A stretch of 64,000 nt of DNA, from assembly GCA_021413735.1 (NCBI GenBank), contig JAIOPV010000250.1, forward strand, positions 1 to 64,000, read 5' to 3'. Source of the stretch: Planctomycetota bacterium. GTDB lineage: Bacteria > Planctomycetota > Planctomycetia > Gemmatales > Gemmataceae. Within the stretch, counting starts at the first letter, position 1. The number at the start of each line of letters is the position of its first letter. Position numbers and translations under genes: made by a program. Below the pieces are notes generated by a model. The model was not told where the DNA came from, did not search any database, and worked only from the letters and a program-made list of their open reading frames with translations. Below, one piece after another: positions 31,001-34,000 of the stretch.

Positions 31001-34000
31001 ACAGAAGGCGGCCAGAGAGGCAAAGTTGAAGGATCTCCTGGCGAATGACAAGAAAGATGACGGCTTGGTGTTCGATGACTTAGGCGTCGATCACGTAATG
31101 GTTGATGAGTGCTTCACCCACGATACGCTGGTTGAAACAGACCAGGGGCCACTCAAGATAGGCGACATAGTAAATAACCGAATGCAGGTCAAAGTAAAGA
31201 CTTTCGGCTTTTCAAGTAATGTTGTAGAGTGGAAGCCGGTTGTAAATTGGTTTCCGAACAAGAGGAAGGGGCGGCTGCTAGAAGTATTTCATGAGTCGGG
31301 ATCGTTCATATGTACCCATCAGCACAAGCTTTGGATTGCAGGAAAGGGGTACAGGAAGGCCGGGGAGATTAAGCCGGGAGAGGAACTGCTCGTACTGCGG
31401 TGCGGCATTTATTCCGAGCGACACCCGCGCCGGGCCGAAACCGAAGCACTGCTCGCCTCAATGTCGCCAAGCATCCCGAATCGTCACGAAGGTCTGCGAG
31501 TATTGCGAGAAGGAGTACCGATTCGAGACGGAGGGGCGGGCGCACGACGCTCGCAGGCGTTATTGCTGCCTGACGTGCAAGATGGCGGTTCAGTGGGACA
31601 AGCCGGGCATCAAGGAATCGTGGCGAAAGTCGATGCAGCACGTCTGGGAAAACGCTCCGATGAAAGGACGGAAAAATCCTGGTGCGTCGGCCTGGCACGC
31701 GAAGCACAGCCCGATGCGGAATCCCGCATCCAGGGAGAAAATGACACGCACGCTCAAGGAGCGAGGAATCAAGCCTCCGGGGATGTGCGGAAACGGCTTC
31801 CCGCCTCCGGTTCCGCAGGCGCTTCTGGCCGAGAAGACGGGAATGCTGCTGGAGCATGTCATCCCAACGGGACCAATCCGATACCTCATCGAGCGGTTGC
31901 CGAACCACTACAAGGCCGATCTGGCCGATCCGTCCCGGATGCTGGTTGTGGAAGTGGATGGGAAGTCGCATGTGGGCGACATGGGGCGGTTTCTGGACGC
32001 GAAGAAGGACAGGGCCTTATCGCTTCTCGGGTGGTCCGTGTTGAGGTTCTCGAACCAGGAAGTGATGGAGAATACCGACTCGGTGGTCGAACGCATCAGG
32101 TCGTTTACGACATCGAGGTAGCTGACAACCACAATTACTTCGCCAACGGCGCGCTAGTCTCGAACTGCCACTACTTCAAAAATCTCGAAACCCCGACGAA
32201 GATGGACCGGGTCGCGGGCATCCAGACCGGCGGCAGCGAGCGCGCATTCGACCTCTACATGAAGTGCCGCTACCTGGATGAGCAGCACGCCGGGCACGGC
32301 GTCACGTTCGCGACCGGCACACCCATCAGCAACTCGCTGGTCGAACTCTATACGATGCAACGGTTCCTCGATCCTGCCGGGTTACGAGATCGCGGAATCG
32401 AGCACTTCGACGCCTGGGCCGCTACCTTCGGTGAGGTGGTCGAGTCGATGGAGATTTCGCCCGACGGGAAGACGCTCAAGCCCCGCGCTCGGTTCTCGAA
32501 GTTCGTCAACCTTCCCGAACTTCAGCAGATGTTCCGGGCATTCTCTGACGTGCAGACGGCGGAGATGCTGAACCTACCCACCCCGAAACTCGAAGGCGGA
32601 AAGCCCCAAGTCGTCGCCTGTGAGATGTCTGACGAGCAGTGTGAAATTCAGCAGAAATTGGTCGAGAGGTACGAGCGGATCAGGAATGGTGGGGTCGATC
32701 CTCGCGAAGATAACGCGCTTGCAATCACCACCGACGGCCGCAAACTTGCGCTCGACGCCCGGATGCTCTCACCCTCGGCTCCAGACTTCCCCGGCTCGAA
32801 GATCAACGCGATGGTCGAGAATGTCGTCGCCATCTGGAAACGGACCGCGCCGACGAAGGGTACGCAGATGATCTTCTGCGACATGGGCGTGAATCCTACA
32901 GCCTGGGGATTCTCGGCCTACGAGGAGGCGACCCGCAAGCTGATCGAACAGGGGATACCGCGTGACCAGATCGCAGTCATGGGTGAAGCTGATTCAGACG
33001 CGAAGAAGCAGGCCCTGTTCGAGAAGGTCCGCAACGGCACGATCCGGGTGCTGATCGGCTCCACGTCGAAGATGGGTACGGGGACGAACGTGCAGAAGCG
33101 ACTGGTGGCGATGCACCACCTCGATGCGCCGTGGAAGCCGGCGGAGGTCGAGCAGCGTGACGGTCGCATCCTTCGCCAGGGGAATCAGAACGCTGAGGTT
33201 TCGATCTACCGCTACGTCACCGAAGGAAGCTTCGACGCGTATATGTGGCAGGCACTCGAAACAAAGGCGAAGTTCATCGGCCAGATCATGACCGGAGAAT
33301 CCGGCGTTCGCCAGGCCGAGGACGTCGGCGGCCAGGAGTTGAGCTACGCGGAAGTCAAGGCGATCGCGTCGGGGAACCCGGCCGTGCTGGTGCTGGCGGA
33401 AGCGGATGCCGAACTTCAACGGCTCGGTGTGCTTCGCCGGAACCACGCCGACGAGCAGTACCTCGCGCGAAAGAACCTCCGCGAACTCCCCCAGGCGATC
33501 GAGCGGATGGATCAGCGTCTTGCCGCACTGGAGTCGGATGCAAAGACCGTCAATGGCGGAGATGCCGGCACGCTCACCGTGAACAACCGGTCGATCGCAC
33601 CGCAAGACCCCGCATTCGCGAACGCTCTGAGCCGCATCCCCGAACAGGTTGAGTACCGCCGCCGCTTTCCGTTGGGTAGGTACTCCGGCTTGGCATTCGG
33701 GATCGAGAAGCACTCAGGTGGATCCGCAGACGTTTACCTCGACGGGGAAACATCCCGGCACACAATGCTCTCCCGCGAATCACAGGGACCCCGAGCAGTC
33801 TTGAACGCCCTCGGGCGGATCGTGGATACCTACGGAGAGTTGATCGACAACGTGCGGAAGGACCGGGAGCTGGCAGAGCGGCAACTCGGTGATTACCAAC
33901 TGCGGTTGGGCAAGCCATTCCTCCACGCAGCGTACATCGACGAACTCACGGCTCTCCGCGATCGGTTGAAGGTGTCCCTCTCCGGCACGCCGGCAGAAGG

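Follow-up and report, generated by a model that had tools for sequence, protein, structure and literature searches.

The textbook intein is a two-domain protein whose endonuclease lies within the spliced-out polypeptide, and in canonical bifunctional inteins a LAGLIDADG or HNH endonuclease domain is encoded in frame as part of the excised protein. So-called fractured genes, reportedly described by Dassa et al. in 2009 (a study cited in PMC7090010), are said to contain split inteins whose two halves are separated by a free-standing gene for an EDxHD endonuclease. Homing endonucleases of the EDxHD type have been reviewed (PMC3943268). An out-of-frame arrangement is known from the ShiLan insertion of actinobacteriophage methylases, which carries a 'hidden' HNH endonuclease gene, leaves the host frame open and lacks a splicing domain (PMC11855218). 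For overlapping reading frames in actinobacteriophages, the same publication cites a preprint by Gosselin, Arsenault and Gogarten from 2025 ('Actinobacteriophage Inteins: ... Non-Canonical Architecture', bioRxiv 10.1101/2025.01.02.630785), which, going by that citation, may describe similar inteins and overlap with the present finding.

The window, i.e. the whole 64,000-nucleotide stretch of planctomycetal DNA analysed here, contains an N6-methylase/SNF2-type helicase gene with an insertion that very probably is a contiguous intein carrying a homing endonuclease overprinted in its +1 frame, which would be made by internal initiation and drive homing of the element. The out-of-frame HNH insertion of ShiLan is the closest published precedent, as in both cases a homing-type endonuclease is overprinted, out of frame, on an insertion that leaves the host ORF open, and the distribution is sporadic. 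Unlike ShiLan, which lacks a splicing domain and is presumed to stay in the protein, the nuclease described here is of the DUF559/EDxHD type and is flanked by a complete Hint domain, the C-terminal splicing block of which is itself dual-coded. The position of an EDxHD-type nuclease between N- and C-intein halves is shared with fractured genes; however, in those the host gene and intein are divided over two ORFs, whereas here a single continuous ORF is overlapped by the nuclease. As in canonical bifunctional inteins, a homing endonuclease splits the Hint domain at the usual position, but it is encoded in the +1 frame and therefore must be a separate protein. The catalytic fold and motif are shared with I-Bth0305I (3r3p), the EDxHD enzyme of a phage group I intron, whose splicing element, in contrast, is RNA and does not constrain a second protein frame. 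The features of the locus are:

27873..34247, plus strand: host gene, N6-methylase/SNF2-type helicase ORF of 2,124 aa including the intein (Pfam SNF2-rel_dom, Helicase_C and N6_Mtase)
31110..31406, plus strand: N-terminal half of the predicted splicing domain, residues 1-99, with Cys1 and block B TxxH
31291..32121, plus strand: overprinted nuclease ORF of 276 aa, +1 relative to the intein, with zinc-finger-like CxxC pairs followed by a DUF559/EDxHD catalytic domain
31291..31293, plus strand: probable ATG start codon of the nuclease, within the intein codons for EVFHES, with a weak Shine-Dalgarno (SD)-like AGAAG upstream
31407..32009, plus strand: intein-frame linker, residues 100-300, predicted to be disordered and without stops; most of the nuclease is encoded by these bases
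31903..32103, plus strand: nuclease catalytic domain, residues 205-271
32010..32165, plus strand: C-terminal half of the predicted splicing domain, residues 301-352, ending in SN and followed by the +1 Cys
32119..32121, plus strand: TAG stop codon of the nuclease, inside block F (GAG GTA GCT, read as E V A in the intein frame)

The intein and its host gene

The initial annotation, whose coordinates and sequences agreed with a re-reading of the window, had proposed a continuous methylase-helicase frame of more than 2,000 aa reading through an intein placed inside VDE|CH, and ORF 27873-34247 bears this out. Once the intein is removed, the computed host protein measures approximately 1,772 aa. 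The insertion of 352 codons (31110-32165) splits the Walker-B motif between VDE and CHYFKN, starting with Cys1 at 31110 and ending with Asn352 at 32165, directly before the +1 Cys at 32166. Joining the flanks yields the candidate intein-free site, ...GTTGATGAG|TGCCACTACTTC..., the presumed substrate of the nuclease. Blocks B and F read GSFICTHQHKLWI and VYDIEVADNHNYFANGALVSN, respectively, and all class 1 residues are present (C1, T69xxH72, N352 and the +1 Cys), with C1, H72 and N352 being invariant across 45 relatives. The penultimate residue is Ser; in inteins this position is usually occupied by His.

The Pfam Intein_splicing model matches frame 0 over both halves with an E-value of 1.5e-6, but stays under its curated bit cut-off. 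This sub-threshold score and the penultimate Ser count against the intein reading. In the AlphaFold2 model, residues 1-99 (pLDDT mostly 94-98) and 301-352 (pLDDT 85-97, except for one block of 67) form a confidently predicted Hint fold, while the intervening 200-residue linker, initially described as low-information sequence, is predicted to be disordered (pLDDT ~44-58). Foldseek searches with this model matched the Spl DnaX, Mtu RecA, NrdJ-1 and gp41-1 inteins with a probability of 1.00. Residues and predicted fold together suggest that 31110-32165 probably is a contiguous class 1 intein capable of cis-splicing.

The genome harbors three intein-free paralogues of the host gene (G000, contigs C174, C137 and C124) with open frames of 1,743-1,762 aa, whose sites differ from that in the window by 13-15 mismatches per 40 bp around the insertion point. 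The residues at the insertion site vary among host-gene copies (DECH, DEAH, DELQ and DESA), and one relative (G051) has several copies.

The nuclease in the +1 frame

The frame of the nuclease ORF lies one base ahead of that of the intein. In agreement with its first description as an 831-nt +1 ORF with a Vsr/DUF559-like core stopping in block F, the encoded protein matches Pfam DUF559 (PF04480) with an E-value of 5.1e-13 and 49.3 bits (curated cut-off 20.6), and its TAG is located within block F at 32119-32121. Residues E221, D223, H227 and D236 are invariant and constitute the EDxHD motif. The AlphaFold2 model of the nuclease has a mean pLDDT of 83, with the first 24 residues mostly predicted to be disordered. 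Its catalytic part resembles NGO0050 (3hrl; probability 0.99, E-value 0.03) and I-Bth0305I (3r3p; probability 0.99, TM-score 0.64 by target length, E-value 0.06), and a sequence profile of the nuclease retrieves the same two proteins (3hrl, 4e-10; 3r3p, 0.013). By motif and modelled fold, the enzyme can thus be assigned to the EDxHD/Vsr-like type, and we infer that it would cleave the intein-free allele.

At loci with one candidate ATG, anti-SD pairing upstream of the nuclease start averages -5.3 kcal/mol, compared with -2.8 kcal/mol at internal ATGs, and the comparison over all loci, adjusted for candidate number, gives P below 1/2000. In many relatives, the SD sequence and start codon are contained within conserved intein codons, either KGDxVY (AAAGGAGAT...TATG) or TEEDGYV (GAGGAGGAT...TATG). 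This enrichment supports internal initiation as the probable mode of nuclease synthesis. In the window, the SD sequence is weak (-1.7 kcal/mol), and since the first residues are also mostly predicted to be disordered, the exact start of this nuclease is uncertain. Alternatively, programmed frameshifting or ribosome slippage out of the intein frame could produce a fusion of N-extein, N-intein and nuclease, to which both the weak SD sequence in the window and the short distance of a few codons, seen in many loci, between the opening of the nuclease frame and the start would conform. The significantly better SD pairing at nuclease starts than at internal ATGs, and the placement of SD and start within conserved intein codons in many relatives, argue against slippage, which we regard as unlikely.

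With internal initiation as the preferred reading, ribosomes translating the helicase gene would traverse the linker, as there is no stop in their frame, and the two Hint halves (residues 1-99 and 301-352) would fold around the disordered 200-residue linker and excise it, thereby restoring the Walker-B sequence VDE-CHYFKN. A second set of ribosomes would initiate inside the N-intein coding region and produce a free-standing zinc-finger EDxHD/DUF559 nuclease, which would cut intein-less alleles at the same site, with repair copying the element in. The two selfish functions would hence reside in separate proteins encoded by the same bases.

Register, stop avoidance and selection among relatives

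The same layout was identified in the DNA of homologues from Roseicella, one Planctomycetaceae MAG and many IMG/VR contigs, as well as in the cultured Corynebacterium phage phi673 (in gp43), Vibrio phage CP-T1 and Pseudomonas phage MR14. The C-terminal ends of nuclease homologues read SFTTSR/K, corresponding to the intein block VVYDIEV translated in the +1 frame, and some proteins extend further into the +1 translation of ADNHNYFANG. At 164 loci (108 non-redundant), the C-terminal splicing block occupies an identical relative frame, and in all of these except L089 the intein frame passes through the nuclease without stops. A later scan, run with a different sub-family, added 37 non-redundant loci with the same layout and register, bringing the class to no fewer than 145 non-redundant genes of phages and bacteria. 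Among 100 parsed inteins, 92 are preceded by DE, i.e. inserted at motif II, seven lie just beside it (DEAH| and similar) and one is located in a terminase. The initial reading, according to which a continuous intein keeps the host frame free of stops while a second frame codes for its mobility enzyme, is therefore supported by the window and by ~145 non-redundant relatives; its label as an intermediate was not upheld, as the layout represents a stable, widespread class with a sole linker stop, in L089. The overprinted layout is a widespread class of mobile element, neither a curiosity nor an error. The phage records examined annotate the helicase alone and the Roseicella record (P0004) the nuclease alone, so that neither contains both frames.

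Stop codons in the intein frame were compared with expectations from synonymous shuffling, in which the nuclease protein and its codon usage were held constant. In the window there are none, compared with 6.6 expected, and zero was reached in 0 of 2,000 shuffles. Across 72 dereplicated nuclease loci, 7 intein-frame stops were counted versus 525 expected, six of them in L164, a free-standing gene without an intein, and one in L089. The third frame of these loci has 866 stops (826 expected), and free-standing DUF559 controls have 516 (602 expected). The openness of frame 0 pointed out in the initial annotation is thus far beyond expectation. Two other causes were considered and excluded: an effect of GC content, by shuffling across relatives of varied codon usage, and a general codon-pair avoidance in DUF559 genes, by the free-standing controls and by two distinct close-family nucleases that are free-standing and have 9 and 28 stops in the corresponding frame. 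Close-family nucleases without an intein nearby (L164/L273 and L278) do hold stops in the corresponding frame, indicating that the constraint goes with the intein.

The intein frame acquires a stop only if T ends a nuclease codon and AA, AG or GA follows. In the window, none of the 21 pyrimidine-ending nuclease codons in this context ends in T, versus 33 of 82 elsewhere. At the 108 intein-nested loci T occurs in 1 of 1,602 such codons, compared with 56% where it is harmless, and in the later set of 37 loci it occurs in 0 of 516. For each NNT codon a synonymous NNC exists, as was checked, so any protein can be written in the +1 register with the host frame unbroken. The other register offers no such escape, since a Met codon ahead of any codon that begins with A unavoidably gives TGA there, which may be the reason for the fixed register; common descent is an alternative or additional reason. 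The rule of never placing T before AA, AG or GA is simple enough to be used for finding more such inteins.

In 15 close pairs, some of them from near-identical contigs, the ratio of nonsynonymous to synonymous changes is 0.33 for the nuclease frame and 1.1-1.4 for the linker read in the intein frame. Stop counts derived from single-site mutation in these pairs were disregarded, since multiple changes within a codon render them unreliable. The nuclease is under purifying selection, and the intein-frame linker experiences little or no selection besides stop avoidance. Conservation of the intein frame beyond that imposed by the nuclease is concentrated in the first strand of the C-intein, RVxSVEVL, with z values reaching 81. 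This strand overlaps the nuclease core GWSVLRFSN, and both are conserved on the same bases. Near 32030-32121, where both frames had been proposed to be functional, dual-frame conservation was confirmed across 100 loci, and the first part of the C-terminal intein half is dual-coded with the nuclease C-terminus. The element consequently has three zones: an N-terminal overlap with the nuclease start, a linker that codes for the nuclease and is merely open for the intein, and a C-terminal overlap constraining both proteins. Among natural instances of same-strand overprinting in prokaryotes, it is unusually clean.

From a single sequence, one would first suspect that the insertion is decaying or frameshifted, or that a sequencing indel displaced an ordinary in-frame nuclease, and in-frame DUF559 inteins do seem to exist (see L050 below). 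The identical register at ~145 non-redundant loci speaks against both, as do the purifying selection acting on the nuclease and the avoidance of stops in the intein frame; neither could recur in every relative, and we consider such an artefact or decay extremely improbable.

A further possibility is a functional split intein, in which separately made halves are joined by trans-splicing and the nuclease gene lies between them. Two natural split inteins, NrdJ-1 and gp41-1, are among the related solved structures, and in L089 (IMGVR_UViG_3300006033_000040) a TGA directly follows the N-half and is possibly succeeded by a restart two codons on. However, the window and every intein-nested relative except L089 are continuous with no intein-frame stop across the nuclease, and such precise avoidance of stops would serve no purpose for halves that are translated separately. 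For the window, this arrangement is ruled out by the single continuous ORF 27873-34247; as a general account of these loci it is highly improbable. The TGA of L089 (6039-6041; SCAEAC*EGM) is the single stop in its intein frame, with an ATG two codons past it and the remaining frame open to the C-half. L089 could possibly be a newborn split intein and would then illustrate how a contiguous overprinted intein begins to turn into a fractured gene; as this is one contig, we treat it as a lead.

In a FastTree phylogeny of the catalytic domain four label changes suffice, and inteins with overprinted nucleases possibly have a single origin. We think it reasonably likely that they form a large, previously undescribed class of mobile inteins of phages and mobile elements, possibly with one origin, in which an EDxHD/DUF559 nuclease is overprinted at a fixed +1 register, the Walker-B motif of helicases, DnaX and a terminase is targeted, and a C-intein beta-strand and the nuclease core share the same bases. 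Since one linker stop would fracture the gene, this class could be a source of natural split inteins, offering a testable route to these from contiguous ones.

A different organization was observed in L050, a DNA-methylase-like ORF of a Chloroflexi MAG, where a distant DUF559 domain is encoded in the ordinary frame between apparent intein blocks (~5988-6400). It appears to be an in-frame DUF559 intein, contrasting with the overprinted class.

Mobility and genomic neighborhood

The N-intein half has a GC content of 46%, compared with 60% in the exteins of the host gene, and no close relative of the nuclease was detected in 100 related genomes of the same genus or family. Together with the intein-free paralogues, these features fit a recent arrival of the intein, which the nuclease probably spreads by homing. 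Purifying selection would be compatible with any function, and the nuclease might have ceased homing and serve the host element otherwise, e.g. in defence or replication. The sporadic presence among helicase homologues, the deviating composition of the N-half and the near-constant insertion at Walker-B/motif II nevertheless fit a mobile element, making such a role quite improbable.

Further genes in the window include a tyrosine recombinase (14694-15779), a TraG/TraD-like protein (19770-21284, minus strand) and a GP88 homologue (35548-36315), which suggest that the window is situated within an integrative or conjugative element. An ORF of 223 aa at 37577-38248 (KYKGVMYAPLRDTPRW) had no Pfam match at 1e-3 and by eye resembles free-standing homing endonucleases of the AP2/HNH type. 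Directly downstream of the host gene, a predicted cyclic-dinucleotide synthase with DisA-like DAC and DACNK sensor domains is encoded at 34350-35504.
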